Shown in pieces: positions 9,722 through 36,728 of a stretch of 50,772 bases of DNA (position 1 is its first letter; every line of letters starts with the position of its first letter). Source of the stretch: Methanoculleus formosensis (GTDB taxonomy: Archaea; Halobacteriota; Methanomicrobia; Methanomicrobiales; Methanoculleaceae). The translations under genes and the position numbers were made by a program. The notes beneath the pieces are model-generated. The model ran no database searches, had not been told where the DNA came from, and saw only the letters and a program-made list of their open reading frames with translations. The stretch covers positions 1 to 50,772 of the forward strand of contig NZ_VHLL01000012.1 of assembly GCF_025384765.1 (NCBI RefSeq), written 5' to 3'.

Positions 9722-11110
9722 TCATGATGGCCTCTCCCGCAGGACGTATCGTGTATTCCTCCTCGACGGGCTCACCTGCTCCAGGATACCACGGTCAACC
9801 AGGGCCTTGAGATCCCTGAAAGCCGTCGCTGCCGAGACGCCAGTGAGTGATTGATAGGCACCGCTGGTGATGCTCCCCTCGACCTTGACCCGTTCCACCG
9901 CAAGGATCTGCCGTTCATTCAGTTCCATCTTCCGAAGGGAACTCTCGTTCAGCATATCCATCCGCATCGTCAGGGTGAACCCAAGCGGGCTGCTGACGAA
10001 GGCGGGAACCGGCATCCCGGCGCTGCGGAAGGCCGTGATGATCCGCTCGATACCTGATCCGTAGCGTTCGACGAGCCCGGCACGGTAGAAAATCTCGGCA
10101 ACCTTCGGGTTGCGGTGGTAAGAGTAGTGCTCTTTTAGGATCATATCGATGGTAACGCCTGCGGGAAGATTGCCGGGATTGTGGAAGCGGATATGGTCGT
10201 CAAAGATCTTGACCTGCGTCTGGACCGTGTTGTTGAAGTAATCTCGGTGGATGAGCGCGTTGAGAAGCGCCTCCCGGATCGCCGGAAGCGGGTAGTCCCA
10301 GACCTCTCTCCTCTGAAACGACTCCTGCATCGCCTCCTCCGAGATATCGTACCTGACGCCGAGATACTGCTTGATGATCCGCTCGCCCTCCTCAAACTGG
10401 CGAAAGAGATTGCCTCCGATCTCGTGGTCGCCGACGATGATATCTGCCCGCTTGAACCGCCCGATCCGGAGGATGCAGTTCTGGAAGTACCGCTGCGGCT
10501 CTCTGCCGAAGAGGACGATGGCTCCGTTGCTGATCCCTCCGTCCCCGGCAAGTCCGAGGCGACGAAGGACGGCCTCGACCGGTTCGGCCGGATCGACGGC
10601 AGCGAGGCGACCTGCCGCCTTCGCACCGGCAAGGAAACGCCGCACCGTCTCCTCGTCGATCTCGTCGAACGAGTACGGCCCCGCGACGCTGTCCCACTCA
10701 ATGCTTTGCTGGAAGAACCCGCGAAGCTCGTCCGGGAGCATCTCGCGTGTCGTGTCGCCGATGCGGGTGTAGTACCGGCCGTCACAGGCGACCGGCACGC
10801 GGCTCCGTTCGACGGCAACGGTGACGACGGACTTCCTCTCGATCTCGCGGATCTCAATGGCCGGATGAATGCCAAGCCGGGTGGTTATGCTATCTGCGAG
10901 TTTTTTGACAGCATTATTTCTGAGGTCGACGCCGACGACGGCATGATCATGGTCGCGGACCCCGATGACGGCTATCCCGCCGGCAGTGTTGGCAAACGCG
11001 GACAGAAGCCTGTAGAGGTTCGCACTCACTTCTTCCTTGAAATCGATCCGCCGTCCTTCAAAGCGGGCGAGCAGGGAGTATAGGTCATTCACGTGCTTCA
11101 CACCTAGCAC
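9722..11110 (-). CDS. AlbA_2 (Schlafen-type) / RecG-like ATP-binding transcriptional regulator
   Basis: This intact 462-aa protein has the three usual parts. The AlbA_2 domain (about 15-125) reads RIDFKEEVSANLYRLLSAFANTAGGIAVIGVRD and YYTRIGDTTREML. The GHKL-like ATP-binding region (about 270-375) reads AIREALLNALIHRDYFNN and HIRFHNPGNLPAGVTIDMI...GSGIERII. A C-terminal winged helix (about 395-455) reads LTGVSAATAFRDLKALVDRGIL. Family members are thought to be DNA-binding regulators. The first codon at 11110 is GTG, and in-frame GTGs at 11101 and 11092 are alternatives. It is the complete counterpart of the fragments at 7729-8175 and of the DUF4062 fusion at the left edge. Confidence 0.9.
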   Translation of the reverse strand: MLGVKHVNDLYSLLARFEGRRIDFKEEVSANLYRLLSAFANTAGGIAVIGVRDHDHAVVGVDLRNNAVKKLADSITTRLGIHPAIEIREIERKSVVTVAVERSRVPVACDGRYYTRIGDTTREMLPDELRGFFQQSIEWDSVAGPYSFDEIDEETVRRFLAGAKAAGRLAAVDPAEPVEAVLRRLGLAGDGGISNGAIVLFGREPQRYFQNCILRIGRFKRADIIVGDHEIGGNLFRQFEEGERIIKQYLGVRYDISEEAMQESFQRREVWDYPLPAIREALLNALIHRDYFNNTVQTQVKIFDDHIRFHNPGNLPAGVTIDMILKEHYSYHRNPKVAEIFYRAGLVERYGSGIERIITAFRSAGMPVPAFVSSPLGFTLTMRMDMLNESSLRKMELNERQILAVERVKVEGSITSGAYQSLTGVSAATAFRDLKALVDRGILEQVSPSRRNTRYVLRERPS

Positions 11111-11582: not shown

Positions 11583-14381
11583 TCACCGCACCCCCTCCCT
11601 CGCGTTCCCCTCCCGCACCAGCCTGGCGTAACACCCCTCGCAGAGGTTCGTCTGCGCCTCCCGCGAGCGGTAGACCGCCTTCCCCGTCCTGCAGACATCG
11701 CACCGGCCGAGCTCGACCTTCACCCGGAGAAACTCCCGGTGATCGAGGACCCCCGATAGGGGCTCTTGCGGCATGGGCCCTCGTCTTGCATCTCTTTTCA
11801 GCGTAGTACAACCGGCGATGCCAGCAGAAGGGCGACTAAAAGGCGCCGGATTGAGGCTTCCGCCCCGTAGTGACGGTATCCCGGGACCGGTTCCGGCATT
11901 GTGGGTTTCACACGCACCCGCAGACGCACTCACCACGGAGCCGGTACCGGGGACTGTGGGTACGTTCTGCTGTACTTCAGTACCGAGAGGGAGACGCCTC
12001 TCTCTACGTGTACAAAGATCGGCCAATTCAACGTCGTTTCGAGCCGCTGGATTGTTGCACCCGGTGCTGGAATCTTGCGGTAAACCTGCTGCAATGTCGC
12101 AACCTTCGGTCCGCACGGATCGGTCCGGTGGCCGCCCCGGATTATCGGGACCACCATCCCGGTCCCCGTCCAGCCAGACCCCGCCGCCATGGGCCCAGCG
12201 CCGGTAGACCACAAGGTCAAAGGAGAAGAGGTGCTCCCGCCGCCGCATCGCGTATCCTTCCCCATCCTCGGTGACCATCGTATCGAAGAAACTGACCGCC
12301 GGGCATTTCTCCAGCAGCCCCGAGTAGGCCGTCCCCCGGCTCGTATAGCCGTGGAGGATACGATAGGTCTGGTGGTACGAGAGCCCGAGCGCCTCCTGGA
12401 GCATCCTGATCGTGAACTGCTCCCAGCCCATCGTCGCCACCGTCGCGAGCGCTGCGGCCTCGTTCTTCGTCGTCTTCGTCTCCTGCCCCCCGGTCTCGCC
12501 GTTGATCGCTGCATAGACCCGGGCCGCCGCGGTGAAGTCGTCCAGGTTTGCCCTGATGCCTCCCTCATACGCCTCTCTCTGGAAGCGGTGGATGAGGGCG
12601 GAGGCCTTGATCAGGTCAAAGAGGATACCCGGGTTGCGACGGTTCGTCGTCGCGGAGAACTGCACGCTCCGGGCATACGGGATAGAGACGTGCGGGCGAA
12701 CCGCCTTGAGGATCTGCCAGATCTCCCGGCAGATCACGAGATCGGGGTCCTCGCCGTCGCCGCCGTCCTCCCTCACCTCCCGCTCCTTCATGTACCGGAG
12801 CACCCGCTCGTCCTGTTCGAGGGAATCATCGATCCAGACCGTGAGCATCCGGTTCGCCACCTGGTCGTCCCCGGCGTCCTCGACCTTCGCGAGCCACCAG
12901 ACGCACCGCTCCGGGATGCGGCAGATCTGGAGTTTCCGGTCGGTGGTCACCGTCTGGTGCTCGATGCTCACCCGGAAGTTCGCGGTTGCGGCCTTGAGAA
13001 CTTCCTGCAGGTCGTCGGAGAGGGAGACATCATCAAAGAGGAAGACGGTGCCGGGTTGCAGGCTGCCGTTGTAGTAGAGGGCTTTGTCCGAGACCGTGCC
13101 GGCGAGGCGGTACTCCTCCGGAACCTGCTGGAGCATGGTGGTGCAGGCGTGGCTCTTCCCCTTCCCGGAGTTGCCGGAGATGGCGACATGAAGGCCGTTC
13201 GTGTTCTCGACCGATTGGGACGCAAGAGACATCACGAGACACTCCGCGACCGTCCGATCGCCGACATGGCTCTTGTTGAAGGTGTCGAGGAGGAACGCGA
13301 GCGGGTCGCCGGTCTTGAGGATCTCTCCTGCCCGGCGGCGGTGCTCATCATCCACCGGTGCCGGGGGAGGGGCTTCCTCCTTCTTCTCCGGCCTTTTCCT
13401 CTCGTGCATCCCCCGGAGTTCCGGCCAGCGCTGCGTCCCTCCGCCGCAACTTGCGTGGTGGCAGCCGGCGAAGATGGCGCCGTTCGCAAACTGGATGGCA
13501 AACGCCCCGTCCTTGTGGGCCGAGGAGAACGGACACTCCGCGAGGACGTAGAGGGTGCCGCCCTGCCAGGGGCGTGTCGACCGGACGGCGATGCCGTGCT
13601 CCGCGAGCCAGGCGGCAAGGTCGATCCTCCGGGAACCCTTCTTCGGCTGGGATGGTTCTTCCCGGGGGAGGAGCCCGGCGAGGCGGTCTAGCCGCTCTAG
13701 CGGAACCACACCGATCTCCTCTGGAGCGTTGAGGATCTTCGCCCGGCGGTGGGGGCGCTCGGGAGTGTTGTCGCCCTTCCGCGATGCGGTCCCGTAGAGT
13801 TTCCAGATCCGGGCGGCGTTGTGGTTCGCGGTATCGACGGTGACGGCCTCGTTCGAGAAGAGGGCGTCGAGGGTCGCAAGTGCTCCCTTCACGAGCGCGG
13901 TTGCCGCCTCATTGTTTGGAAGGTCCACCCGGTAGAGGAGGTGGGCGCCGTTGCCCGAATCTGCCCGGAGGGGTTCCGGGAACCCCTGCTCGGCGAGATA
14001 CGCCGCGATCCGCTCCGCGACAGCGAGCGCCGCGTTATGCTCCGCATCGGTCGACGAGACCCCGCTCGGCCGCACCGGGTCGATGTCGACCGGGAGCCAG
14101 CGCCGGCGGATGATGTCGGCGTCGGCGGTCGTCGCATCCTTCCGCGAGAGCCGCATCTTGATCCGGTTCGCCCGCCGGGCGAGGAGGGCGGGGTTGACGG
14201 CATTCAAGGTGACGTAGATCCCGGCGACCGAAGGGTCGGCATCGAGGGCCTCGACGGCCCGGGCGAGGCACTCGTAATCGTCGAAGTAGCCGGAGTGGGT
14301 GACGCCGTCGGCGAGCGCCCGGACCTCGATTACGCCTTCAGTGGGGGCGAGGAGCGTTGCTGCCTGCAGGATCTCGTTCAT
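11583..14381 (-). CDS. PrimPol-helicase replication protein of a mobile element
   Basis: This 932-aa protein combines DNA primase and helicase modules, as in plasmid and virus replication proteins. The N-terminal archaeo-eukaryotic primase module shows the DxD motif VDIDP (D99, D101), a G-N-G-x-H motif (143-147) and TVD (D183). A zinc-binding stretch follows (C283, H289, C307, C312). The AAA+ helicase has Walker A GNSGKGKS (403-410) and Walker B VFLFDD (446-451). The C-terminus has a CDVC...CEGC zinc ribbon after a low-complexity linker (about 740-880). ATG 14381 overlaps the upstream gene by 4 bp. No integrase is visible nearby, so the element may be decayed or the primase may be all that is left. 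Confidence 0.88.
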   Translation of the reverse strand: MNEILQAATLLAPTEGVIEVRALADGVTHSGYFDDYECLARAVEALDADPSVAGIYVTLNAVNPALLARRANRIKMRLSRKDATTADADIIRRRWLPVDIDPVRPSGVSSTDAEHNAALAVAERIAAYLAEQGFPEPLRADSGNGAHLLYRVDLPNNEAATALVKGALATLDALFSNEAVTVDTANHNAARIWKLYGTASRKGDNTPERPHRRAKILNAPEEIGVVPLERLDRLAGLLPREEPSQPKKGSRRIDLAAWLAEHGIAVRSTRPWQGGTLYVLAECPFSSAHKDGAFAIQFANGAIFAGCHHASCGGGTQRWPELRGMHERKRPEKKEEAPPPAPVDDEHRRRAGEILKTGDPLAFLLDTFNKSHVGDRTVAECLVMSLASQSVENTNGLHVAISGNSGKGKSHACTTMLQQVPEEYRLAGTVSDKALYYNGSLQPGTVFLFDDVSLSDDLQEVLKAATANFRVSIEHQTVTTDRKLQICRIPERCVWWLAKVEDAGDDQVANRMLTVWIDDSLEQDERVLRYMKEREVREDGGDGEDPDLVICREIWQILKAVRPHVSIPYARSVQFSATTNRRNPGILFDLIKASALIHRFQREAYEGGIRANLDDFTAAARVYAAINGETGGQETKTTKNEAAALATVATMGWEQFTIRMLQEALGLSYHQTYRILHGYTSRGTAYSGLLEKCPAVSFFDTMVTEDGEGYAMRRREHLFSFDLVVYRRWAHGGGVWLDGDRDGGPDNPGRPPDRSVRTEGCDIAAGLPQDSSTGCNNPAARNDVELADLCTRRERRLPLGTEVQQNVPTVPGTGSVVSASAGACETHNAGTGPGIPSLRGGSLNPAPFSRPSAGIAGCTTLKRDARRGPMPQEPLSGVLDHREFLRVKVELGRCDVCRTGKAVYRSREAQTNLCEGCYARLVREGNAREGVR

Positions 14382-14710
14382 ACCTGCACCTCTGAGAAGA
14401 GGGGGGCGCTTGTCGCCTCTCCGCAGGCGACCCGCCGGAGGGAGACGAGGGGGACGATCCAGGTGCCTTCCCGGGTCCGGATCACCACCGCTTTCCCCGC
14501 GGCGTTCAGCGCCGCATATCCCTCAATCGTTACCTCCCCCATGACGGTGCCGCTTGCCCGCCGCACCCGCTCCCGGACGACCGGGGCCGGCCGGCCAGAG
14601 AATATGAGCGCCCGGACATCTGCGGGCGATATCCGGCAGCGTTCCCCCTCGACATGGACGATGAGCCCGCCGGCCGATGTGCCGGAAAGGATACCTAACT
14701 CAGGCATCAT
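14378..14710 (-). CDS. Hypothetical protein of primase operon, 110 aa
   Basis: I do not recognise the family. The text suggests a small beta-rich protein (GGLIVHVEGERCRISPADVRALIFSGRPAPVV, then YAALNAAGKAVVIRTREGTWIVPLVSLRRV). It overlaps the primase-helicase by 4 bp at its end and the upstream small gene by 4 bp at its start (ATGA at both), so it is part of one translationally coupled operon. An accessory role in element replication is inference from position alone. Confidence 0.75.
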   Translation of the reverse strand: MMPELGILSGTSAGGLIVHVEGERCRISPADVRALIFSGRPAPVVRERVRRASGTVMGEVTIEGYAALNAAGKAVVIRTREGTWIVPLVSLRRVACGEATSAPLFSEVQV

Positions 14711-14970
14711 GGACGCCCCCGTTCGATTTCGACGGTGTAGTGGTGGTTCCTGGTCCTCCGTACATGGATCTCCCGCACCGCCCTTCCATACCGCCGGATG
14801 ACATCCGCCACCGCCCGCGGGACGAGGAAGAGCGGGACAGTACTGACACGGTCTTCCTCAGATGGTCTTATCACTCCGGGCGGAGAAGAGCTGGTGGCAG
14901 TCCCGTGTGAATCGATGTTGGCGCACGCTTCATCCCGTGGGCTGCCGTCTTTATGGTCTATGCTTTGCAT
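14707..14970 (-). CDS. Hypothetical protein, first gene of primase operon, 87 aa
   Basis: I do not recognise the family. The C-terminal half is basic (LVPRAVADVIRRYGRAVREIHVRRTRNHHYTVEIERGRP) and could bind nucleic acid; the N-terminal 40 residues look disordered. It starts at ATG 14970 and overlaps the next gene by 4 bp. Being the first gene of the primase operon, it could be a copy-control or origin-binding protein, but the sequence does not prove this. Confidence 0.6.
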   Translation of the reverse strand: MQSIDHKDGSPRDEACANIDSHGTATSSSPPGVIRPSEEDRVSTVPLFLVPRAVADVIRRYGRAVREIHVRRTRNHHYTVEIERGRP

Positions 14971-15383
14971 TCTGTTTCCTCATCGCGTGGTGCTATCAAT
15001 CTGACTTTATCCTCAACACCTTCTCCCGGACGAGTTTTGCTACTCGGGTCCGGGAGATGGGTCAGGTAGTTCCCGGGCGGTCTCTTGCCGCTTTCCTCTG
15101 CTGAGATGCCGTGGTTTTGACATTGGTCGCCGGCACCTCTCGCATAAAAATAGATGGATATGAGATGATATGAGCAAGAACCGCGCGAAGTGTGAGTGAG
15201 AATCCCTTCAGTACCCGCGGTCCCCGGCCCGTGTCCACAGACCCGCGCTACATCCCTTATGGAGCACCGGTTAATTGGCAGATCACCTGCTGAGCCCGGG
15301 CTTATCGGATACTACGGTAGCGCTATACCAATACGGGTTCCCATCCGCAGGGCACCGGGGGAAGACCCGACGCCCTCCCCCCC
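14971..15383. other. Gene-free stretch left of the nth scar
   Basis: About 410 bp with several short open frames but no recognisable motif. It lies upstream of the primase operon and should hold that operon's promoter. No clear tRNA, integrase site or repeat is visible apart from the nth fragment that follows. Confidence 0.5.
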
Positions 15384-15444
15384 TCACTCCTCCCCGCCCG
15401 AGAGCTCCCGGTAATACCGGCAGAGGTCCGCGACGACGCACCGG
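15384..15444 (-). pseudogene. 3'-end fragment of a second nth (endonuclease III) copy
   Basis: Read on the minus strand, this piece codes for RCVVADLCRYYREL followed by SGGEE and a stop, the very end of an endonuclease III gene. Its first 39 bp (15406-15444) are identical to 36094-36132 in the intact nth. The last 19 bp before the stop differ (10 of 19 match) but keep the same length and frame. Everything upstream of the last 20 codons is missing; at 15440-15444 it is joined to a PiT transporter fragment. Confidence 0.9.
15406..15444 (+). repeat. 39-bp direct repeat, left copy (nth 3' end)
   Basis: This stretch is identical over 39 bp to 36094-36132 and in the same orientation. The two copies bracket 20.6 kb holding the whole csa3-cas-CRISPR locus. 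The layout resembles an attachment-site or recombination duplication at the 3' end of a conserved gene. No integrase is found between the copies, so the mechanism is open. Confidence 0.9.
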
Positions 15445-15580
15445 CGCGATCATGGGCGTCGGGGCGACACGCGGCTACTCGGCGGTCAAGTGGGGCGTGG
15501 TCCGCGAGATCGTCACGGCATGGATCCTGACCATCCCGGCGGCGGCGATCGTGGCCGGGCTCTGTTGTCTCGTCGACTAA
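15440..15580 (+). pseudogene. C-terminal fragment of a PiT-family phosphate transporter
   Basis: Forty-six codons ending in TAA read TGAIMGVGATRGYSAVKWGVVREIVTAW followed by ILTIPAAAIVAGL. This is the last part of inorganic phosphate transporters (PiT), including the final membrane helix. The remaining 280 or more residues are absent. The join to the nth fragment falls in accgg, a 5-bp stretch that both genes could have shared, which suggests illegitimate recombination at short homology. Confidence 0.75.
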
Positions 15581-15778
15581 GCGGTGTTCGGCGGGGTCTT
15601 CTGACAGGGGCGTGAGTTCTCCACGCGCAGGGGGATACGCAGGATGGCCGCCTGCCATCACGGAACTCTTCGTCTACCCGGATATTTCGCGGCAGGTCTA
15701 ATTAGAATTATCAGGGATCTGGCAGAGAGCAGGTTGAGCATCCCGGCACAAAGAGGGGATTCCTTTAACGCTAAATAA

Positions 15779-17467: not shown

Positions 17468-20400
17468 TGGTAAAGTCGCCAGAGAGCATTATCCCACCAG
17501 ATGTATTACGCGAATATCTCCGCCCGGAGACAGGGGACGCAATCCATGATCCATATCAGGTTCTTATCGATTATTATGAGATTATTGACCCGTCCCTCCG
17601 GGGCTCCAGCGTTGCATACCTCCCTGCAAAGAGTACGGAGATGGGGAAAGTTGACCAGACGATGCTCAACCATATCCGAAATGGTGTCTGGGCTCTCATT
17701 GAACTCAATGTCGGGCTAATCGCCCTCGGCTCTGCTAATGCTCTCTCTGAGCGGGAACTGCGAGAAGTGATTGCCCTCTTTTCGGTTCATGATCTCCACA
17801 AAATTCATGGAAAAGATTGGAAAGAGCAGTTTGATATTTCGCAGGAAGAAGTCCTCGAGTACGCTGAGGCGTTCGGAGCAACAAAATTCGCCCCCGACCT
17901 CACCGGACATGACTTCCAGTCAGTCGCCGTCGCACTGCACAAATCGATCGGATTCCATGCGAATCTCTCAGTAAAGTTTAACCTCTATCGCCCCTGGCTG
18001 ACGATCGCCGATACGCTTGCAAGTATAGAGCAGCCACAGGCAACGCCATCGATGCAGCAACAACTGGACCGGATCGACCCCTCGGTCGACTTCTACTATC
18101 ATACATTTCAGGAGGCAACCGGTATCCTCACCAATCTCGTCCATACCGGGATTGCCGGGTGGGCTTCAGAAAAAGGGCTCCACCCCCTCCTCATATTTGA
18201 GAAAGGAGTTCTTTACCTTGGGGAGGCGGACAAACAGTTTGAGTTGAACGGGGAGGAGGATATCAAAGAGATCTACCGGGCGTTCAGGGAGGCGCTTAAC
18301 TCCTCCCATCCTACATTCTCTGATACGCTTGAGTTGCAGAAGAGTATCGATGCATCACAAGCAAGCAAAGGATTTTACAGAATTGAAAATGTCTTCTTCT
18401 TCTATTCGGGAGTAGAGAAGGTTGCGAAAGCCTTCGCAGCTGCGGCTGTATTGAGAGAGAGTGAGAATACCGCAACCATCGAGGTAGACTGCACCGGTGG
18501 CGTGCTCAAGGTTGGAAACACAGAACCAGATATGCAGTACCCTCCGGCGCAGACGGTAAGTATTCCCCGGAAGTGTATCACCGGCATCACCGTCGACGGG
18601 CGGACGGTGGATACGGGCGATGTCTTGATCCGCTGTCGCTCAGAAGAGCGGAAACGAAAGAAATTCACACTGATCCCGGAATCCGTAGAGATCGATGGGC
18701 AGAGAGTTTCCGGGAAGGTTGCCATTAACGGGACCGGCCTGATGACCAGCCAGATCGGGTACCGGGCGCACATTATGGAGGATTTCGGGAGCGACATCGG
18801 CTGGGATTCAAAGATCATATCCTACTCCCGTGCAATCTCGGGGCTCCGGATGCAACTCATTGAACCTCTTATCAAGATCGGTGCGCTGGACTCGGCTGAC
18901 CCTGTACTTGAGACCTGCAGAATGTTCGGCGTCGATGCAGCCCTCTCCGAGCGCCTATCCGGATATGCTCAGGCTCATCGTACAGATGACCACCACCGCG
19001 TTGGCGGGTTCTGGAACTACTCATATGTTATTGCCCGGGATCTTCTCGATCGGGATATTGATGGGATTTGGTTTGCTGACATTCGAACATCCAACGAGAA
19101 GATCCAGTATCTTGAGGATTGCATCACGCGCTACCTCCAGAGAGTTCCTCATGAAAAGATCCAGGAACTCGAATCCGAGTTACTCTATCCTTACCAGGAA
19201 AAGATGCTCGTCTGGATATCCGAGAACCTCGAGTTCAACGGTTCGATGTTCTACGGCACATTTGAAAACAAGGCCGATAAGTTCCAGGCATATTGTAATG
19301 GTGGAGGTATCTGCCGCCTCTCCAACGATACGCCCTATGACAAGGAGAGGATCCCGTTATCCATTGGGGTGGGTATGCTTGGTCTTTCCTTTTCCAACCG
19401 TTTGCCGGTAGGTGCAAGCGAGCCTGCTCTGTATGTATCAGTCCCTATCGCGATCGAGATGGGATTAAGATATATCGGTCATGGAATTAAAGGAGGAGCC
19501 AACCGGATATACTTCCGGCTTATTCCCGACCACTTCTATACGCCGGTTCTATCCCGCCTGTTCTCACAGTTTTTAAGCGTATTTAATGGAGACTGCCAGA
19601 CAAACGTCCGGGCGCTTGCTCTTGATATCCTTTCCCGGGATACTCCACAGTACGAACTACTGGTTCGTGACCTTGTCTCGGAGTCCGGTCGGAAGAATGT
19701 CCTGCGGTATGCTGGCTATGGTTACAAGAGTCTCCACACAACCTATGACGTCGTCTTTAACAAGGTGAGGGATAACGACACTGAATACTGGTTTTTCGGA
19801 TCATATCTCGGGCTAATCCTCGCTGCTGCGACCGGATGCAGGGTGGTCGTCGGCGAGAACCCGATCTGCATGAGTCCTGGTGATGAGTTCTCAGCGATGG
19901 TGAAACTCGATGCACCGCATGCCGCTGTGAAGCGGATCTCCGGCGACGTCATCCCGCTTACAGAATTGAGCAGTGTGATCGATCTCGCATCGCTCGTAAT
20001 TGTACTCGGTTACGAGAATGTGATGGAGGATAAGAGGTTCCCGAAACATCTGCAGACGCTTAAAAACAAGATGTTTCCCGGGAGTTCTCTCTTAAAAGAT
20101 ATCTGGAGAAAGTATGAGAATGAATCAAGAAAAGGGGCATTCGTCAACCGTGCCCGCGGGTACCGCAATGAGAATGAAGAGATTATTTATGACGACAATC
20201 CAGGGCTCGTCTTCCTGGCGTTACGGCTTGACCGTATTGGAGGTGATGTAATGGCAGTTGAGACTATTCATGAACTTGCTGAACTCGGCCTGACGGTTGC
20301 TATCCCGAAGGGATATGAACCGCACCGGGTCGAGAAACTCTTCCGTGAGTCGGTGAAAGCAGTCCTCGCGAAGCGTGACGGTTCGTTTGCACGAGAAGAC

Positions 20401-21736: not shown

Positions 21737-22486
21737 ATGTCTCAGGTATCGAGTTCTCCGAATAATGGCGCAGGTACTCGTGCCTTTGAGGGCGTCCTCG
21801 AACTCATGAGCGAGTTATTCTTTGCTTCGCTCGAACCAGGCAACAACTACGTAACGCGGCCGATCATCCTGAATACTGCCCTTTACTACGCACTGGGGTA
21901 CGCACAGGGTAACTATGTCAACAAGCCGGTAAACAAGCGATCAAAAAAGCAGCAACCGGCTTACATCGAGGAGACCAACGGTATCGTCGACACCATATAC
22001 GTGAGCCCTGCCCGCCCGATAGGAGACATACACTACACAAGCGAAAACTCAAACGCTCGCAGCGATGAGTATATCCAGTATAACCGGCTGAAAGAACAGA
22101 AAAACTCCCCAACGGGGAAGATTGGAACTAGGAAGCAGATCCAGCCAGGAGCCCGGTTCCGATTCTTCGTTCTCACGTTCGATGGAAGTGAACCTGATAT
22201 GCCCCCATATATCCGCGTTGGGAAGAAACGGTCAAAGGCACTTGTCACATGGAGGGAAGTCCCGGTCAGCATGACCGATGGAGAGTTCTTGATGAACCAC
22301 CCTGTTCTTGTCGATGACCTTGCAGAGATGCCTCTCGGAGATCTCTCTTTTCAGCGCATGCAACCGTTCGATGTTATTGAACGCGGGAGGTTTATCGAAC
22401 CGCACCTGGTGCTTGACTGCGGAGCTCCCGCAGGCAGGTTTGCGCTCCCGGCAAGCATCCGGTTCCTTCGGAGGTACCGGGCGTGA
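21737..22486 (+). CDS. csc1: Type I-D Csc1 (Cas5)
   Basis: Csc1 caps the 5' handle end of the crRNA in the I-D complex. The 249-aa product (MSQVSSSPNNGAG) has Csc1-like text in NYVTRPIILNTALYYALGYAQG and ends SIRFLRRYRA. Start choice: ATG 21737 follows GGAGGT by 4 bp; ATG 21725 is the alternative but overlaps that site. The stop overlaps the GTG of cas3 (GTGA). The identification rests partly on its fixed place between csc2 and cas3'. Confidence 0.85.
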   Translation: MSQVSSSPNNGAGTRAFEGVLELMSELFFASLEPGNNYVTRPIILNTALYYALGYAQGNYVNKPVNKRSKKQQPAYIEETNGIVDTIYVSPARPIGDIHYTSENSNARSDEYIQYNRLKEQKNSPTGKIGTRKQIQPGARFRFFVLTFDGSEPDMPPYIRVGKKRSKALVTWREVPVSMTDGEFLMNHPVLVDDLAEMPLGDLSFQRMQPFDVIERGRFIEPHLVLDCGAPAGRFALPASIRFLRRYRA

Positions 22487-26570: not shown

Positions 26571-29500
26571 GTCACAGCTCATCAGAAAACCCGATAGGGA
26601 TTGAAACCCGGGCGCAGAGGTGCATGCCAGCGCCCGATATCCAGAGTCACAGCTCATCAGAAAACCCGATAGGGATTGAAACTCAGCGATCGCGTCCACG
26701 GCGTCGGCGAACTTCGTCACAGCTCATCAGAAAACCCGATAGGGATTGAAACGAGGGCTTCCCCGCCCCGGACGCACCGGTAAAGGCTAGTCACAGCTCA
26801 TCAGAAAACCCGATAGGGATTGAAACTGCTTGGTGGCCGTTCTGGTTGTGCCGGGTTCGGCGCTGGTCACAGCTCATCAGAAAACCCGATAGGGATTGAA
26901 ACGATGGACGGCCGTTAACCCGTTAGCCTCTGAGCGGTCACAGCTCATCAGAAAACCCGATAGGGATTGAAACAACTCGTAGACGCTGATGTAGGGGAGC
27001 CGGAACCCGTCACAGCTCATCAGAAAACCCGATAGGGATTGAAACATATAAAAATCAACCGAAAGGAGCCCGCGGGCCATGTCACAGCTCATCAGAAAAC
27101 CCGATAGGGATTGAAACTCAACTGACTCATGCAGGCGTCGAGCGGGGTCGCTCTGTCACAGCTCATCAGAAAACCCGATAGGGATTGAAACAATGTGTCA
27201 GACAGGATTTGAACCTGTGATACCCTGTCACAGCTCATCAGAAAACCCGATAGGGATTGAAACATCGACCGCGAACTGCACGACGCATTGATGAAAGAGT
27301 CACAGCTCATCAGAAAACCCGATAGGGATTGAAACCCGGCTTTACGGGCTCCGCTGGGGGCTTGAGGGACGTCACAGCTCATCAGAAAACCCGATAGGGA
27401 TTGAAACAACGACCTGGCAAAGGCACTCAGTGGCGATGACCCGGTCACAGCTCATCAGAAAACCCGATAGGGATTGAAACGACTCCTGGCCTGCGGTGGC
27501 GTCCCGGACCAGGTCGGTCACAGCTCATCAGAAAACCCGATAGGGATTGAAACGTGGGCGACGATGGTCTCCTGCGAGATGATCCCCAGTCACAGCTCAT
27601 CAGAAAACCCGATAGGGATTGAAACGACGGCAAGGACCGCGAGGGCCGTTGTCGTGCCGAAGTCACAGCTCATCAGAAAACCCGATAGGGATTGAAACTT
27701 CGTCGACCCGGGGCGGCTCCACACCTACATAGTAGGTCACAGCTCATCAGAAAACCCGATAGGGATTGAAACCCAGGGTGACATTCTGCCGGACCTCTGC
27801 ATCGAGGTTGTCACAGCTCATCAGAAAACCCGATAGGGATTGAAACTGCAACGGCGGCGGCTGCCTGCTCCTTGGCAGTCGGGTCACAGCTCATCAGAAA
27901 ACCCGATAGGGATTGAAACCCGAGCGTGACCTCGCCGACCTCCGAGAAGAGATCAGTCACAGCTCATCAGAAAACCCGATAGGGATTGAAACATCTTGTT
28001 CTGCCGGCTGACGGTGATCCCGCGGCAGGGTCACAGCTCATCAGAAAACCCGATAGGGATTGAAACCCGCCCCGCAATCCGGACGCGCTAACCCCCAAGA
28101 TGGCGTCACAGCTCATCAGAAAACCCGATAGGGATTGAAACCTCCCGCGCGCCGCACCGCTCGCCGAGACGTATCAGACTGTCTGGGAGGAGTCACAGCT
28201 CATCAGAAAACCCGATAGGGATTGAAACGGCGCGAGGTAAGCGACGACAACGCCGTCCTTTTCGTCACAGCTCATCAGAAAACCCGATAGGGATTGAAAC
28301 AGCGACTCCGATCCGCAGTAGGGGCACCTCATACCAGGTCACAGCTCATCAGAAAACCCGATAGGGATTGAAACAAATAAGGAGTTTCTAACACATGCCG
28401 AAAACCACAGTCACAGCTCATCAGAAAACCCGATAGGGATTGAAACTCCCCGTACCTCATCCGGGCCGCGAGAGCGTCGCGGGTCACAGCTCATCAGAAA
28501 ACCCGATAGGGATTGAAACCCCCCGGCGACGGCCACCGTAGCCCCTCCGATCTGTCACAGCTCATCAGAAAACCCGATAGGGATTGAAACAGAGCGTTAT
28601 AAAACTACAGTCCTGGGGGAATCTCAGTCACAGCTCATCAGAAAACCCGATAGGGATTGAAACAGTCGTATCGATGCACGGGCGGCCGATACCTCGGGTC
28701 ACAGCTCATCAGAAAACCCGATAGGGATTGAAACTCTTCGGGGTGTGCTGTGCCCGGGGCCGTGCCGCAGGGGTCACAGCTCATCAGAAAACCCGATAGG
28801 GATTGAAACGAGGAGGTACCCGGCCAGGTCGTCCTGGTGCCATCGTCACAGCTCATCAGAAAACCCGATAGGGATTGAAACGATATCGAGATCCAGTATA
28901 CGCTTCGTCGGTCGCGGTCACAGCTCATCAGAAAACCCGATAGGGATTGAAACCACCTACCCCTACGTGGACGGGTGCCCGCACCTCGAGTCACAGCTCA
29001 TCAGAAAACCCGATAGGGATTGAAACGAGTGAGTGGGCTGCCGAGCAGGGCAAGATCGCCCGGTCACAGCTCATCAGAAAACCCGATAGGGATTGAAACC
29101 TGGAGGTTGTAGCCGACCGGGCCCTTGAGGGACGGTCACAGCTCATCAGAAAACCCGATAGGGATTGAAACCTGGAGGTTGTAGCCGACCGGGCCCTTGA
29201 GGGACGGTCACAGCTCATCAGAAAACCCGATAGGGATTGAAACTTCGTGTTCGGTGCTTTGAGGTAGAAGGTCTTGTTCGTCACAGCTCATCAGAAAACC
29301 CGATAGGGATTGAAACACCGGGACGGTATCGCCGGCGAAATCCGGGGCGGGAGTGTCACAGCTCATCAGAAAACCCGATAGGGATTGAAACACTGCCCCG
29401 GCCGCTGCGGCACCCCCGGCGGCGATTGTCACAGCTCATCAGAAAACCCGATAGGGATTGAAACTTGGAGAGGGAGAACCCCTCCACCGCACAGGCGATA

Positions 29501-32500
29501 TGTCACAGCTCATCAGAAAACCCGATAGGGATTGAAACTTATGATTGTTGTGGCGATCATGACAAAAAATTGATGTCACAGCTCATCAGAAAACCCGATA
29601 GGGATTGAAACCAGAGCGCTACCCGGCGATCAGAGATGCTCGCATCGTCACAGCTCATCAGAAAACCCGATAGGGATTGAAACCCGGAGGAGATCCGCGA
29701 GAAGACCAAGCCGCACACCGTCACAGCTCATCAGAAAACCCGATAGGGATTGAAACCCAGTCATGCGAGACGCGCTGGTTCGTGGCCTCGGTATGTCACA
29801 GCTCATCAGAAAACCCGATAGGGATTGAAACACATCGAGAAGGAACTGCAAGCGGCCGCAGAGGGGTCACAGCTCATCAGAAAACCCGATAGGGATTGAA
29901 ACAACGGCATCCAGCCCTTCCGCGCCGCAGCCTCTGCGGTCACAGCTCATCAGAAAACCCGATAGGGATTGAAACATTGGGAGGGGCGCTGCCCCCCCAT
30001 TGCACCGGCAGTGTCACAGCTCATCAGAAAACCCGATAGGGATTGAAACAGCGTGAGCATGTTGAAGCGGGTGCTCCTATGTAGTCACAGCTCATCAGAA
30101 AACCCGATAGGGATTGAAACTGGGCGGCGTCCATGTCGAATACAACCGTGAACTCGGTCACAGCTCATCAGAAAACCCGATAGGGATTGAAACTAAGATG
30201 TGGTTCCGGTGCCGCTCCCTCCAGTAAATGTCACAGCTCATCAGAAAACCCGATAGGGATTGAAACTTTCTGCCTGACTCGTCAGAACCGCCGACATGGT
30301 GAAGTCACAGCTCATCAGAAAACCCGATAGGGATTGAAACTTTCTTGTCATGTTCTTTTCACCTCTCTTATTACGTCACAGCTCATCAGAAAACCCGATA
30401 GGGATTGAAACGCGGTATTCTCTCTCGCACCCCTGATCGGGTCCAGTCACAGCTCATCAGAAAACCCGATAGGGATTGAAACAGTGAGAATGGAGACGGT
30501 GCAAACAACTTTTGAGAACTCGTCACAGCTCATCAGAAAACCCGATAGGGATTGAAACCATCCTGCCTCGAGCCGCACCCCGTCACCTATGAGTCACAGC
30601 TCATCAGAAAACCCGATAGGGATTGAAACTTTGTGGTTTTGCCGGTTCAAAGCGATAGATTTTAACGTCACAGCTCATCAGAAAACCCGATAGGGATTGA
30701 AACTTGGTATTGAAATCCTCCGAGACTGAGGCGCCGGTGACCGTCACAGCTCATCAGAAAACCCGATAGGGATTGAAACGAAGACAGTCAGGAACTCCCG
30801 GGCAATGTGGCGATCGCCCGTCACAGCTCATCAGAAAACCCGATAGGGATTGAAACCAGCAGCCGGCTGTGCGACTCGTTGACCGCGGCGATCGTCGTCA
30901 CAGCTCATCAGAAAACCCGATAGGGATTGAAACAGGGAACCCCCCGGTTTCCCCTGGCTCTATGACGGGTCACAGCTCATCAGAAAACCCGATAGGGATT
31001 GAAACAGAAGAAAGGTTACTTGATTGTTGATCCTGTATTTGGTCACAGCTCATCAGAAAACCCGATAGGGATTGAAACTTACGCTTTGACTCTCCGGGAT
31101 CGTCGAGACCCCTGTCACAGCTCATCAGAAAACCCGATAGGGATTGAAACATAGGCTAATGGGCCGGGGAACCGGCCGCTATTGTTTGTCACAGCTCATC
31201 AGAAAACCCGATAGGGATTGAAACTCGTTCATTCCGGCATTTTCAGTTCTCCCCTCCGCAGTCACAGCTCATCAGAAAACCCGATAGGGATTGAAACAGG
31301 ACGTTGAACTCTCGCCTCTGCTGGCTTCGTTAGCGTCACAGCTCATCAGAAAACCCGATAGGGATTGAAACACTACCTCCCGGTTCGCTGGCTCCGCTCC
31401 TGGTGGCTGTCACAGCTCATCAGAAAACCCGATAGGGATTGAAACAGAAACCGCATATCCCCGGCAGCGTTCCAGAGCAGCGTCACAGCTCATCAGAAAA
31501 CCCGATAGGGATTGAAACCCTCGTTATCGTGTTCATGGTACTACTTCTGTTTCGGTCACAGCTCATCAGAAAACCCGATAGGGATTGAAACATTCATCCT
31601 TCGCTCGACCCTGCCGGGTTTCGGATGCAGTCACAGCTCATCAGAAAACCCGATAGGGATTGAAACTTTCTTACGCCATCGGGCGGCGTCTCGATGCAGC
31701 GTCACAGCTCATCAGAAAACCCGATAGGGATTGAAACCGGGACATTCGGCAAACCGGGGCATACATAGCGAAGTATGTCACAGCTCATCAGAAAACCCGA
31801 TAGGGATTGAAACCCGGCCTCGATCTGCTTCATCCGGTCGTAGACCCGGGTCACAGCTCATCAGAAAACCCGATAGGGATTGAAACCAAGGGTGACGACC
31901 CGGGTTCAAATCCCGGCCGGGGGTCACAGCTCATCAGAAAACCCGATAGGGATTGAAACATAGTTGCAGTTTCCGGGGGGTTTTGGTAGGTTGCGTCACA
32001 GCTCATCAGAAAACCCGATAGGGATTGAAACAGCGAGGGCAACGGGAGTACGATCGCGGAGGGAGGTCACAGCTCATCAGAAAACCCGATAGGGATTGAA
32101 ACCGGGCGGGCGTCGAGAAGCACATCACGCCACATCTGGTCACAGCTCATCAGAAAACCCGATAGGGATTGAAACTTCGCGATCAAGTCGTCCGGAACCC
32201 CGGGGCCGTCGCGTCACAGCTCATCAGAAAACCCGATAGGGATTGAAACTTGACCTGCCGGAGGTTGAGCGCCTTTCTGCTTCGTCACAGCTCATCAGAA
32301 AACCCGATAGGGATTGAAACCGGCACCCGAGCAGGCACACTTACCCCGCTGCAGCGTCACAGCTCATCAGAAAACCCGATAGGGATTGAAACGCGAGGTC
32401 CTCCGAGGAGTACCCCTCTGTGTTGTCGTCACAGCTCATCAGAAAACCCGATAGGGATTGAAACCCGCCGCGCTGCACGAAGGCGGGGTGGAGGTCGAAG

Positions 32501-35500
32501 TCACAGCTCATCAGAAAACCCGATAGGGATTGAAACATGTCGTATTATGGCTGGCTGCAGCACTGCGACTCCTGTCACAGCTCATCAGAAAACCCGATAG
32601 GGATTGAAACGGGCTGCCTACGCTTCTTGTTCGCATGTATCTCCTCGTCACAGCTCATCAGAAAACCCGATAGGGATTGAAACAGCACCGGAGGGGGGAG
32701 GCGCTAACATGTCCCTCGCCGTCACAGCTCATCAGAAAACCCGATAGGGATTGAAACTGGAATCACCTGGTTCCGGGCCGTATCAATGTCATCGTCACAG
32801 CTCATCAGAAAACCCGATAGGGATTGAAACCCGGACGGGCTGCACCCCAGGGTGGTCCCGGTGGCGTCACAGCTCATCAGAAAACCCGATAGGGATTGAA
32901 ACTCGACTCGGATACCCTCACCACGGACGACCAGACCCTGTCACAGCTCATCAGAAAACCCGATAGGGATTGAAACAACCGGGACGCGACCACGCAGTCC
33001 ACCCCGACCGTCACAGCTCATCAGAAAACCCGATAGGGATTGAAACCGGATGGCGGCGGCGTCAGAAGTCGATGAGGGCGCAGTCACAGCTCATCAGAAA
33101 ACCCGATAGGGATTGAAACGGTACTGCCGAAGCCGACGTGATCCGGGCCCAGAAGGTCACAGCTCATCAGAAAACCCGATAGGGATTGAAACGTGCGATA
33201 GGTGTGGGTTCTGGTGCAGCCCCCGCCGGGTCACAGCTCATCAGAAAACCCGATAGGGATTGAAACTCGAGCACCAGGCAGCCTGCGGACCAGTGAGCCG
33301 GTTCGTCACAGCTCATCAGAAAACCCGATAGGGATTGAAACGCGTCGGCGAGGTTCCAGATCCCGATCTCGGCCCGGTGTCACAGCTCATCAGAAAACCC
33401 GATAGGGATTGAAACAGTCAGTGTGATGTCCATGGTTAGTCCTCCATGTTGTCACAGCTCATCAGAAAACCCGATAGGGATTGAAACACGTTGGCGTCGT
33501 TCGCTACGGTGTGCGAGGCGATGGTCACAGCTCATCAGAAAACCCGATAGGGATTGAAACTCTGAGGAGCGGCCGGACTACGTCGCCGACATCACCGTCA
33601 CAGCTCATCAGAAAACCCGATAGGGATTGAAACGGCCTCGGATGGGACGGGGTCACGGTCGCAACCGTAGTCACAGCTCATCAGAAAACCCGATAGGGAT
33701 TGAAACGCGAGCTTCTCGGTGGTGCGCTTGGCAGCGACACCAGTCACAGCTCATCAGAAAACCCGATAGGGATTGAAACTGAGATCATCAAGGCGGGCGC
33801 GCCCAATGCCCCGCGTCACAGCTCATCAGAAAACCCGATAGGGATTGAAACTGTACATTGCCGGTCGTCTGCGCAATCCGACGCAGCGTCACAGCTCATC
33901 AGAAAACCCGATAGGGATTGAAACTCGCCCAGGCCGAGCGCGTCGGCGTGGACATGTTCCCGTCACAGCTCATCAGAAAACCCGATAGGGATTGAAACCC
34001 GACCAGGGAAAACAGAATCTCTACAAGCGTGCTCATGTCACAGCTCATCAGAAAACCCGATAGGGATTGAAACACCTCTCTCCTCGGTGATATGGTGGCG
34101 GGGGTTTTTGTCACAGCTCATCAGAAAACCCGATAGGGATTGAAACCTCGTGAGCGACCCGCCGCCCCGAGTGACACTTTCTCGGTCACAGCTCATCAGA
34201 AAACCCGATAGGGATTGAAACGACTACACGGGAGATTGCACCAGCGCCGACGTTCCCGTCACAGCTCATCAGAAAACCCGATAGGGATTGAAACAAAACC
34301 GGCGGGATCCAGTGCTGGGGAGAAGATGTGGTGTCACAGCTCATCAGAAAACCCGATAGGGATTGAAACACCCCCGCTGCGGACAGGACCGGGCGCCCCC
34401 CGGTGGTCACAGCTCATCAGAAAACCCGATAGGGATTGAAACTGCGCAAGGTCGGCGGATACCTCAAGCCCGAATTGTCACAGCTCATCAGAAAACCCGA
34501 TAGGGATTGAAACGTGAGCGTGACAGCTGCATCCTGCCAGGCAACTCCGGTCACAGCTCATCAGAAAACCCGATAGGGATTGAAACTGGCCCGCGGGCTG
34601 GCGGGTCTGTGAGTGCGGGGAGAGTCACAGCTCATCAGAAAACCCGATAGGGATTGAAACAACGGGAACCACCCCGCCTTGACCGCCGCCACCGCATAGT
34701 CACAGCTCATCAGAAAACCCGATAGGGATTGAAACGACGTGTATCACCTCCTCGTGGTGATGGAGCACGACGGTCACAGCTCATCAGAAAACCCGATAGG
34801 GATTGAAACACCGGGGAACTAAAGGGTGACGGCCCGACCATCAACATCGTCACAGCTCATCAGAAAACCCGATAGGGATTGAAACAAGGTTACGCCTGCC
34901 GGCCGCTCGTATTTCCGGCTGCAGTCACAGCTCATCAGAAAACCCGATAGGGATTGAAACTCTTCCTTGGGGTAGATCTCAAGGGTTTGGTTGACGGTCA
35001 CAGCTCATCAGAAAACCCGATAGGGATTGAAACGCCGTGCAGCACGTTGGCTACTGACCCCCCCACCGTCACAGCTCATCAGAAAACCCGATAGGGATTG
35101 AAACGGTAATCGTAGTCCCGTCAGGGTTGACGATCACGAGTCTGTCACAGCTCATCAGAAAACCCGATAGGGATTGAAACTGACGCTGCGCAGAAGTATG
35201 AGAGAGGCTGGGCCGAGGTCACAGCTCATCAGAAAACCCGATAGGGATTGAAACAGGAACGGGTAAGACTTGGTAGAGAGGTGAAAGACGTCACAGCTCA
35301 TCAGAAAACCCGATAGGGATTGAAACTTCAAGCGCGCCGGGGAGCGGCCTGAGAACCTGAGTCACAGCTCATCAGAAAACCCGATAGGGATTGAAACGCG
35401 ACCCGCTGACCCCTACGGCGGCAGACTACCTGTAGTCACAGCTCATCAGAAAACCCGATAGGGATTGAAACCTGATCATCGGACGGCTGCAGCGACGCGA

Positions 35501-35987
35501 ACTGCCGGGGTCACAGCTCATCAGAAAACCCGATAGGGATTGAAACGACCTCACCATCACCGTCACCGCGCTCGACGACGAGTCACAGCTCATCAGAAAA
35601 CCCGATAGGGATTGAAACCAGGCGCGGATGCAGTACACCTGCATGGCGGAATCGGTCACAGCTCATCAGAAAACCCGATAGGGATTGAAACCAATATCTG
35701 ACGGAGACTGTCGATGCCGACGGGCAGGGTCACAGCTCATCAGAAAACCCGATAGGGATTGAAACTACGCATAAAGAGTGCTATCGAAGAGGAAGAAGAT
35801 GCTAGTCACAGCTCATCAGAAAACCCGATAGGGATTGAAACGTCCCGGTGACGGCCGGCCCGCTCACCGGAGGGGGTAGTCACAGCTCATCAGAAAACCC
35901 GATAGGGATTGAAACCCTCTTGCGCCGTCCCGCCTGATCTTCCGGGGAGAGTCACAGCTCATCAGAAAACCCGATAGGGATTGAAAA
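26571..35987 (+). CRISPR. CRISPR array, 129 repeats of 37 bp, 128 spacers
   Basis: The repeat starts GTCACAGCTC, contains the short palindrome CCCGATAGGG and ends GGGATTGAAAC. I counted 129 copies starting at 26571 and ending with the one at 35951. The spacing between copies is 70-77 bp throughout, except one of 87. Spacers are 33-40 nt apart from one of 50 nt. All internal repeats look identical; the last differs only in its final base (A for C at 35987). One spacer is present twice in a row. The repeat end fits the type I-D genes upstream, so this is the crRNA source for that system. Confidence 0.98.
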
Positions 35988-36071
35988 ATGGCTACTACCC
36001 GGCGCATGGGAAAATCCATCCCCAACCAAAAGCAGCGGGAGGTACCCGGCGACCATCCCCCCGACGCCCCC

Positions 36072-36728
36072 TCACTTCCCCTCGTCTCGCAGTTCCCGGT
36101 AATACCGGCAGAGGTCCGCGACGACGCACCGGTCGTGCTTTGGGTTCTGTGCCGTGCAGACGGCGCGCCCGTGGCGGATCAGGAGGTAGTTGATGTCCCC
36201 CCAGACCTCCTCGGGGAAGAGGGCGACGAGGTCGCGCTCGATGATATCGGGGTTCTTGCTCCCGGTGAACCCGAGCCTTTTTGAGAGCCGGGCGACGTGG
36301 GTATCGACGGCGATCCCGACGTTGATATCGAACGCCTGGGAGAGGACGATGTTCGCGGTCTTCCTCCCGACCCCGGGGAGCTGCAGGAGTTCCTCCATCG
36401 TCCGCGGGACCTCGCCGCCGAACTCGTCGACGACCTTCCTCGCCGCCCCGACGATGTGGCGGGCCTTCGTGCGGTGAAACCCGATCGTCCTGATGAGCGG
36501 CTCCACCTCTTCGGGCTCCGCGCGGGCAAGCGCCTCCGGCGTCGGGTAGCGGGCGAAGAGAGCGTCGCGGACGGCGTTGACGGCGCGATCGGTCGTCTGC
36601 GCGGAGAGGATCGTGAGGATGAGCGTCTCGTAGGGGTTATAAAATTCGAGAAAATGGCGCTGGCCGTCGACGATCGGATACTCCTCAAGAAGACGGCGAT
36701 GGACCTCGCAGGCGGTCGTGCGGTTCAT
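36072..36728 (-). CDS. nth: Endonuclease III (base-excision DNA glycosylase)
   Basis: Nth removes oxidised pyrimidines and nicks the DNA. The 218-aa protein has the helix-hairpin-helix LPGVGRKTANIVL with the catalytic Lys and the VDTHVARLSKRLG loop with the catalytic Asp. The C-terminal iron-sulfur motif reads C-TAQNPK-H-DR-C-VVADL-C, so the second of the four cysteines is His (codon CAC). ATG 36728 (MNRTTACEVHRR) is preferred; the frame runs further upstream into the tRNA gene. It lies 6 bp after the tRNA-Pro gene. Its last 13 codons fall in the 39-bp repeat that is copied at 15406-15444. Confidence 0.95.
   Translation of the reverse strand: MNRTTACEVHRRLLEEYPIVDGQRHFLEFYNPYETLILTILSAQTTDRAVNAVRDALFARYPTPEALARAEPEEVEPLIRTIGFHRTKARHIVGAARKVVDEFGGEVPRTMEELLQLPGVGRKTANIVLSQAFDINVGIAVDTHVARLSKRLGFTGSKNPDIIERDLVALFPEEVWGDINYLLIRHGRAVCTAQNPKHDRCVVADLCRYYRELRDEGK
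36094..36132 (+). repeat. 39-bp direct repeat, right copy (inside nth 3' end)
   Basis: This is the intact-gene copy of the 39-bp sequence found again at 15406-15444. It covers codons for RCVVADLCRYYRE in nth. Its position just beyond the CRISPR array makes it the right border of the bracketed island. Confidence 0.9.

Follow-up and report, generated by a model that had tools for sequence, protein, structure and literature searches.

The three-gene operon at positions 11583-14970 of the stretch analysed here, 50,772 nucleotides of the Methanoculleus formosensis genome (NZ_VHLL01000012.1; hereafter the window), constitutes the replication module of small integrated elements of Methanomicrobiales, methane-making archaea, that resemble plasmids or viruses. 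The 2.65-Mb genome is in 19 contigs, and the window opens contig C12. The operon encodes a large replication protein (P0001, the PrimPol protein) and two small partners (P0002 and P0003). We consider it likely that the module comes from a small integrative replicon of this order and is present here as a stripped copy, and that the initiator protein of intact relatives would bind iterons inside its own gene. Because the DNA of a linker in the large gene forms an iteron array in most relatives, and because the repeated words track the recognition helix of a winged helix-turn-helix (wHTH) domain, the initiator gene appears, on sequence comparison, to harbour an origin of its own, in the manner of phage lambda O. 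The components of the operon, called as open reading frames (ORFs), and the parts of P0001 are listed below.

11583-14381, minus strand: P0001, 932-amino-acid replication protein with a primase-like region, Zn site, MCM-like AAA+ domain, wHTH, linker and Zn ribbon (ORF call, sequence, homology, model)
13662-14381, minus strand: AEP primase-polymerase-like region, residues 1-240 (D99, D101 and H147 invariant in 27 sequences; phage homology)
13437-13544, minus strand: internal zinc-binding-like stretch, residues 280-315 (C283, H289, C307, H309 and C312 invariant in 27 sequences)
12462-13355, minus strand: MCM-like AAA+ domain, residues ~343-640 (structure model, Foldseek, VIA-align)
12192-12467, minus strand: wHTH, residues ~639-730 (secondary structure of the model; weak helix-turn-helix matches)
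12351-12377, minus strand: predicted recognition helix, residues 669-677 (YHQTYRILH; model and alignment); residues 670-671 (HQ) vary with the iteron word in relatives
11787-12170, minus strand: linker between wHTH and Zn ribbon, the site of the iteron array in relatives
12065-12102, minus strand: degenerate iteron-like units TTGCGACA, TTGCAGCA, TTACCGCA and TTCCAGCA, spaced 8-11 bp (motif picked after inspecting the stretch)
11986-12005, no strand: imperfect palindrome common to the subfamily (AGAGAGA..TCTCTCT type; subfamily comparison)
11583-11786, minus strand: C-terminal zinc ribbon, residues 866-932 (CxxC...CxxC; sequence); the conserved block ends here in most copies
14378-14710, minus strand: P0002, 110-amino-acid partner (ORF call, gene order in relatives, dN/dS)
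14707-14970, minus strand: P0003, 87-amino-acid partner (ORF call, gene order in relatives)
14971-15227, minus strand: upstream region and probable promoter, similar to the copy in genome G017 (similarity stops at 15227)

The linker varies strongly among copies of the gene, and its DNA was repeat-rich at p<0.01 in 99 of the 123 copies scored. In the discovery set, 41 of 48 linkers exceeded dinucleotide shuffles at p<0.01 (two of 50 contain N and were left unscored), and 37 of those 41 exceeded all windows of equal length that the same gene offered upstream, a few linkers having fewer than 10 such windows. A hold-out set of copies from other genera (60 minus two duplicates) gave 46 repeat-rich linkers out of 58, and a later set (20 copies minus three duplicates) gave 12 out of 17. 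Most repeat-rich linkers carry their own 8-base word, usually 3-17 times; these words include TGACAGCA, TGGCAGCA, TTGCAGCA, TTGCAACA, TTTTCACC, CTTCCGCA, CTTCAGCA and TGCAGGCA. At 13 loci, 90 of 95 word occurrences fell inside the linker; since the words were chosen for their repetition there, what is telling is how few fell outside. In most of 21 copies, few repeats were counted in the DNA preceding the operon. Furthermore, palindromes stand at approximately the same two offsets (near 47-64 and 293-316) in six of 11 Cdc6-type copies (L113, L115, L116, L123, L126 and L057), with arms that change jointly (TGAC..GTCA, TGGC..GCCA, TTGC..GCAA); the pair is shifted in L117 and absent in L118, L119, L124 and L010. 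Four copies (L260, L298, L299 and L300) have a PrimPol frame of ~800 amino acids with an 84-nt linker and no iteron array, so their origin, if any, must lie elsewhere.

The words follow the recognition helix of the wHTH with exceptions, a match that, judged from sequence, is strong but not perfect. Among discovery copies, SYQKT or PYQKT helices went with TGACAGCA in nine of ten cases, the exception being L087 (SYQKT, with TTTTCACC), and SYYQT helices went with repeated TGGCAGCA, TTGCAGCA or GTACAGCA in seven of eight, L009 being the exception. In a partial Mantel analysis on 28 of 33 elements, with words assigned by hand, word distance correlated with wHTH distance after correction for the N-terminal part (r = 0.37, p = 0.0005), and the correlation of words with the rest of the protein was 0.00 once the wHTH was accounted for. 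A quick tree of primase plus ATPase, with 42 rows and a single very long branch, requires a minimum of 13 word changes and shows the QK and YQ types intermixed. Helix-word predictions were fixed before the hold-out copies were fetched. The word predicted for YHQV helices was found in L263, L265, L266 and L246 and nearly in L264, but not in L286 or L288; that for YYQT was found in L268 and nearly (TTTGCAGC) in L270 and L278, but not in L271, L257, L274 or L267; that for the N/S type was found in L289 and nearly in L284 and L287, but not in L282, L283, L291 or L292. The class YQQT, absent from discovery, carried TTTCAGCA in five of five hold-out copies. A simpler rule based on two helix residues fits both sets: T[TG]GCA outnumbered T[TG][AT]CA with [HYS]Q helices in 22/25 discovery and 32/35 hold-out copies, and the reverse was found with Q[KRQP] helices in 12/12 and 11/11, respectively, 13 discovery and 12 hold-out helices falling outside these classes. 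Shared ancestry inflates such helix-word counts.

We then considered the domains of P0001. The protein gave no match above the curated cut-off in Pfam or NCBIfam, and PHROGs returned phrog_12057, whose function is not known (E 2e-5, residues 395-529), and a weak match to phrog_19, a DnaB-like helicase (E 6e-4, residues 7-123). A structure model of residues 1-745, built on 27 family members (pLDDT 76.8, pTM 0.46), matched MCM replicative helicases in Foldseek (E 1e-7, residues ~343-640) and 8w0f_E in VIA-align (Z 21.9, root-mean-square deviation 3.6 over 274 residues), MCM-like matches lying at Z ~20-22; all of the 50 structure matches listed were MCM or replisome entries. The model thus supports an MCM-like AAA+ helicase part. 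Its wHTH comprises helices 639-651, 658-665 and 669-677 and strands 696-721. The N-terminal part is primase-like: residues 1-323 share 39.6% identity with a Bacteroides phage gene annotated as DNA polymerase, and the setting of D99, D101 and H147 resembles that of AEP primase motifs. Where the initial annotation had called P0001 a primase-helicase, therefore, the helicase half gained a structural basis, and the primase half leans on phage-gene homology and these motifs, there being no Pfam match above the cut-off.

The ORF calls bore out the annotated layout of a 932-amino-acid frame and two small partners, each junction being a 4-bp overlap. Because the order P0003, P0002, P0001 recurs in relatives and the large gene has a low ratio of nonsynonymous to synonymous substitution rates (dN/dS), the three ORFs are genes rather than chance frames. 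The dN/dS of P0001 was 0.15-0.28 against nine relatives (first 737 codons; L160 over 247 codons only), and those of P0002 and P0003 were 0.37-0.72 and 0.19-0.54, respectively, against eight relatives. The coding sequence of the window operon is under purifying selection. The kinship of P0002 departs from that of the primase: it shares 90% identity with the G027 protein and 50% with that of G017, though the G017 primase is the nearest.

At E<=1e-100, P0001 has matches in 123 of 232 Methanomicrobiales genomes, spread over 27 of 40 genera. Some match occurs in 28 of 35 Methanoculleus genomes, and 17 of the 35 hold a copy covering at least 700 residues; these longer copies number 26, with up to four per chromosome and in differing contexts, so the three genes are not core, and the result that would have refuted the initial annotation, core chromosomal positions in all relatives, did not appear. 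The source genome itself carries a complete-looking Cdc6-type copy on contig C10 (L057) and pieces on C1, C2, C4, C5 and C15. A pattern-based scan of a genome collection returned 48 loci, all with Methanomicrobiales names or in Euryarchaeota bins. Plasmid and virus searches, suggested for the three genes as a block in the initial annotation, gave partial matches to P0001: 22 loci in viral contigs were similar over residues 1-353 only (a search of viral contigs with the single P0001 sequence gave no match), two phage records matched over residues 1-323, and among 11 matching plasmid records one was from Methanomethylovorans (residues 4-323) and ten were weak Leptospira matches over the ATPase.

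The gene content of the relatives was compared in 20 Methanoculleus regions, 19 of which hold a PrimPol gene (L128 does not). Eight of the 19 have an outward-facing coiled-coil/transmembrane gene, a gene for a 168-amino-acid protein, an Orc1/Cdc6-like gene, P0003, P0002 and the primase gene; L110 has the same set minus Cdc6, and L117 and L126 have Cdc6 only. In five others (L114, L120, L121, L122 and L125) a tyrosine recombinase gene lies upstream instead, at 29-30% identity to the query used, and in three (L111, L112 with a Cdc6 fragment, and L127) none of these genes is intact. Several other Methanomicrobiales loci also have a tyrosine recombinase gene upstream of the primase gene; in other genera a Hjc-like nuclease gene precedes it at many loci, several of which have a recombinase gene too, and the 168-amino-acid gene follows in L025, L026, L038 and L043. 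Pfam searches with one member per cluster identified Cdc6_lid (2.6e-17, in a member from L063, which has no PrimPol gene beside it) and integrase (3.3e-25), with Mrr_cat/Hjc just over the cut-offs. The 168-amino-acid protein (L012 7421-7924, L025 9616-10119 and others) is linked to the elements in several genera and is a candidate structural or accessory protein; its model is fair (pLDDT 84.8), no structure in PDB or among viral models matched it at E<=0.001 (best Z 6.3), and no relative was confirmed in viral contigs.

On the left side, the 25 copies compared show 22 distinct sequences past the stop codon of the primase gene. The stop codon was at one time taken as the right end of the element, a view dropped after a fourth overlapping ORF turned up in some copies. 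This hydrophobic frame of ~85 amino acids (VIPVDPLQGP...), which has no Pfam match, overlaps the PrimPol stop in L122, L125, L129, L016, L020, L014 and part of L009, and since it extends past the stop, only a conserved block is claimed. Short derivatives (L061, L062 and L059) were likewise rejected as non-autonomous elements, several being orthologous decayed remnants. In G017, the nearest PrimPol copy is broken near the C-terminal zinc ribbon by a short repeat-like insert (L127 ~17890-17990), and an insert of this kind also follows other copies. No convincing direct or inverted repeats were found between both conserved edges of ten copies. Searches of the genus with one flank each of L116 and L113 gave no clean empty site, these flanks being rich in repeats and mobile DNA. 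No tRNA lay beside the copies; the 29 loci scanned contained one tRNA, which was not at an edge.

For the window copy, the best reading is a remnant that has been stripped yet stays under selection, rather than a new integration route. It lacks the tyrosine recombinase, the Orc1/Cdc6-like initiator, the Hjc-like nuclease and the 168-amino-acid gene, all carried by many relatives: no integrase, partition or Orc1/Cdc6 gene was found among the 19 window ORFs in the Pfam scan, and no window ORF of the non-overlapping set fell in the integrase, Cdc6, Hjc or 168-amino-acid clusters. Of the three readings that the initial annotation had offered after noting that no integrase or partition gene adjoins the operon, a remnant is the best supported, because the copy holds replication genes only while many relatives carry more, and because it sits where a foreign block broke a phosphate-transporter gene. 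For the family in general, no other route of integration has to be invoked, since a tyrosine recombinase lies upstream in several relatives. The window copy is probably no longer able to move or replicate alone. The place of the break is defined by two features on the right flank.

15379-15444, no strand: duplicate of the nth (endonuclease III) 3' end, 66 bp, with 38 bp identical to 36095-36132 (nth confirmed by profile scan)
15445-15612, plus strand: 3' fragment of a phosphate-transporter gene (PHO4, pit-like), the right flank of the foreign block, with 85% identity to the end of the intact gene on contig C13

The intact PHO4 gene on C13 encodes 394 amino acids, and the nth-end and transporter-end matches overlap by ~11 bp. 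A transporter end lies near nth in 11 of 20 regions from other Methanoculleus genomes, ten of the 11 in the same orientation and 105-891 bp from nth; this indicates that the DNA left of 15445 replaced the body of the transporter gene. In G027 (L160) the operon is also near nth, with three CRISPR-like repeat copies between them. GC skew, suggested earlier as a check for an origin at 14.97-15.4 kb, showed no clear turn there and was uninformative as an origin marker.

Several observations on CRISPR-Cas were made around this site. The nth 3' end forms a direct repeat at 15379-15444 and 36067-36132 (38 bp identical, 66 bp at 86%) that brackets a 20.7-kb type I-D CRISPR-Cas region, a layout like the attachment sites of an integrated element. 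G017 (L011/L127) shares with window 15403-15612 the same nth-3'/phosphate-transporter junction beside a PrimPol operon, behind which it has type I-C CRISPR-Cas where the window has type I-D, so that CRISPR types seem to have been exchanged at one site. The three repeat copies in L160 (1993-2138) are 24 nt long, 61 bp apart and type I-E-like by eye. In another methanogen (L026), a 54%-identical PrimPol gene adjoins a CRISPR-like array and cas genes of the window's clusters. The I-D array of the window (26571-35986) has 128 spacers, none of which matched PrimPol elements among the collected loci. Two spacers (34960 and 35841) match L127/L011 over 30-31 bases, in a stretch resembling G017's own array, and another (29756) matches L148 over 30 bases, close to the nth gene of G028. 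On the other side, downstream of the operon, lies an SLFN_AlbA_2 plus HATPase_c_4 gene (9722-11110). Members of its family also stand close to PrimPol genes at several further loci, and this genome has more than one of them. Positions 1-141, where the contig begins, show a 12-bp periodicity that recurs in L011 near 22297-22378.

In the mechanism we propose, the large protein of the intact family would use its wHTH, encoded immediately before the iterons, to bind these repeats within its own gene, the MCM-like ring would open the duplex and unwind it, and the primase-polymerase domain would make primers. The Orc1/Cdc6-like proteins of many relatives may help loading, and the tyrosine recombinase of other relatives would carry out integration. 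By analogy with orf56 of the plasmid pRN1, P0002 and P0003 probably regulate copy number. DNA binding, origin activity and the roles of the two small proteins are what we infer from these comparisons.

Several results weigh against the proposed reading of the operon. Repeats were not significant in 7/48, 12/58 and 5/17 linkers of the three sets, and the window linker has no significant exact-repeat array (p = 0.34); the linkers of L010, L011 and L092, of the same subfamily, are likewise not enriched in exact repeats. We read the window linker as a worn, degenerate iteron array, with units that were spotted after the fact. The exact words predicted beforehand appeared only partly in the hold-out copies, and the two-residue rule was sharpened after these had been seen. 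In the later set the rule holds in four of seven [HY]Q copies (L301, L302, L303 and L307) and fails in the near-identical L304-L306; among Q copies with cut-short linkers it holds in one of two (L299 fits, L300 does not). L010 and L011 break the rule, and the window copy (L001) has near-even counts, 3 vs 2. Independent tree pairs stood at two for and none against, too few for a test, and neighbouring sequence may recombine as one, which would give some correlation by itself. The primase domain matched no Pfam AEP family above cut-off, LigD_Prim-Pol appearing in three of 27 members with a best E of 0.11. Finally, searches for an excision site, a target duplication or a circular form came up empty.

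Other roles for the linker repeats must be weighed in the light of these points. Plasmid iterons often serve several of autoregulation, incompatibility and partition, and the linker repeats may have one or more of these functions instead of that of an origin; we regard this as unlikely. A promoter operator is a poor fit, given that the repeats occupy the 3' portion of the final long gene and that most of the 21 copies have few repeats ahead of the operon. It is still less probable that the repeats are neutral, low-complexity coding DNA growing by slippage. Such growth would agree with the variable linker lengths, with a 153-bp tandem repeat in L126 and with the simple top words of some hold-out copies (GAGAGAGA, ACACACAC), but most words are not simple, palindromes stand at fixed offsets in several copies, and the words are nearly confined to the linker and follow the recognition helix.

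The operon as a whole could also have another standing. We find it improbable that the host keeps it for repair, defence or CRISPR adaptation and that it is no longer a replicon. Its ORFs are intact and the dN/dS of 0.15-0.28 is low although the integration genes are gone; the operon lies beside CRISPR-Cas both here and in G017, it is next to a CRISPR remnant at nth in G027, and cas genes adjoin the copy in L026. However, its position is not conserved, 18 of the 35 genomes in the genus lack a copy that spans 700 residues, the neighbouring G017 copy is disrupted near the C-terminus, and recent mobile ancestry predicts the same purifying selection. Least probable of all, in our judgement, is that the operon replicates a larger island, an option raised in the initial annotation, to which the defence genes on its left, restriction-modification genes among them, would also belong. 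While defence genes are adjacent here and related restriction-modification genes lie near the G017 copy too, the G017 neighbours are arranged differently, no match to the AlbA-gene stretch was found in G017, and in most other copies similarity gives way to unrelated DNA close to the stop codon of the primase gene. Our preferred reading remains a small integrative replicon whose replication module is present in the window in stripped form.

We also give slightly better than even weight to a broader proposal, in which these elements are a widespread archaeal mobile replicon family with the origin inside the initiator gene, whose helix and words switched jointly many times. The pair would then be an incompatibility tag letting related elements coexist, and the family a natural library of ~100 helix/site pairs. 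The analysis makes of an unnamed gene block a replicon that can be put to the test. Should the initiator gene contain its own origin, one gene cassette might serve as a minimal self-replicating vector for Methanomicrobiales, and the helix/word pairs would teach how a winged helix reads DNA and help explain why several related elements share one cell.

Among known systems, the window operon very probably belongs to the arCOG07809/Mpal_2033 group, to which we liken it by published description. Methanosphaerula, one of its hosts, is a methanogen of the same order. As passages of one paper describe, small integrated elements with a primase-helicase-helix-turn-helix-Zn-finger protein occur in Methanosphaerula and other archaea, and several, but not all, arCOG07809 islands carry integrases, some an HJR-type endonuclease (Makarova et al., 2014; PMC4158269). 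The likeness lies in one protein with primase (primase-like in P0001), helicase, helix-turn-helix and Zn finger, and in integrase and HJR-type endonuclease neighbours as in the relatives here; P0001 has a helicase/AAA domain after the primase-like region (by the model) and a helix-turn-helix and Zn finger after the helicase, and the integrase and HJR-type endonuclease are absent from the window copy and present in some relatives. The two differ in the helicase, given there as superfamily I in the text and as DnaA-like AAA in the table, and MCM-like in our model. The passages of PMC4158269 on these elements describe no 168-amino-acid gene, coiled-coil/transmembrane gene or helix-word match, and its main text does not contain the words iteron and origin of replication. 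In the open-access literature, arCOG07809 and Mpal_2033 were found only in that paper, and nothing was found joining PrimPol and Methanoculleus.

The operon logic is that of pRN1, whose orf56/orf904 operon, as excerpted, comprises a small copy-control gene and a gene for a prim/pol-helicase-winged-helix protein, with a minimal replicon of ~3.1 kb (PMC4234260). The same excerpts (PMC4234260) give pRN1 a superfamily 3 helicase and a required stem-loop downstream of the gene, whereas the helicase here is MCM-like in our model and the repeats are inside the gene. The copies differ in the DNA that follows the primase gene, an argument against a conserved downstream stem-loop in this family.

Iterons inside a coding sequence, the trait of lambda O, were found in relatives (99/123), the window copy not being significant for exact repeats. 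Lambda O is a different protein, of a bacterial phage, and it is not known to be a primase or a helicase. The part of PMC7466680 consulted places its inverted-repeat iterons mid initiator gene, bound by the encoded protein, and in this the proposed arrangement would be the same. The PrimQH family of the PrimPol-PV1 supergroup agrees by description, in the passages concerned, in having a primase, a Zn-binding domain, a P-loop ATPase (some of the MCM family) and a C-terminal winged helix thought to recognise the origin (PMC5862659); it differs in that iterons are unmentioned in the main text of PMC5862659. SaPI Rep and SCCmec Cch2/CCPol also belong to integrated elements with a helicase and a primase, and a DNA-binding domain there recognises iterons, but these lie downstream of the helicase gene in SaPI and, putatively, in SCCmec, and not inside it, according to extracts of PMC7581432. 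No such internal array was described for archaea in the titles and abstract starts of the open-access literature. As far as that literature shows, the MCM-like model, the Methanoculleus architectures, the array inside the gene and the match of its words to the recognition helix are new.

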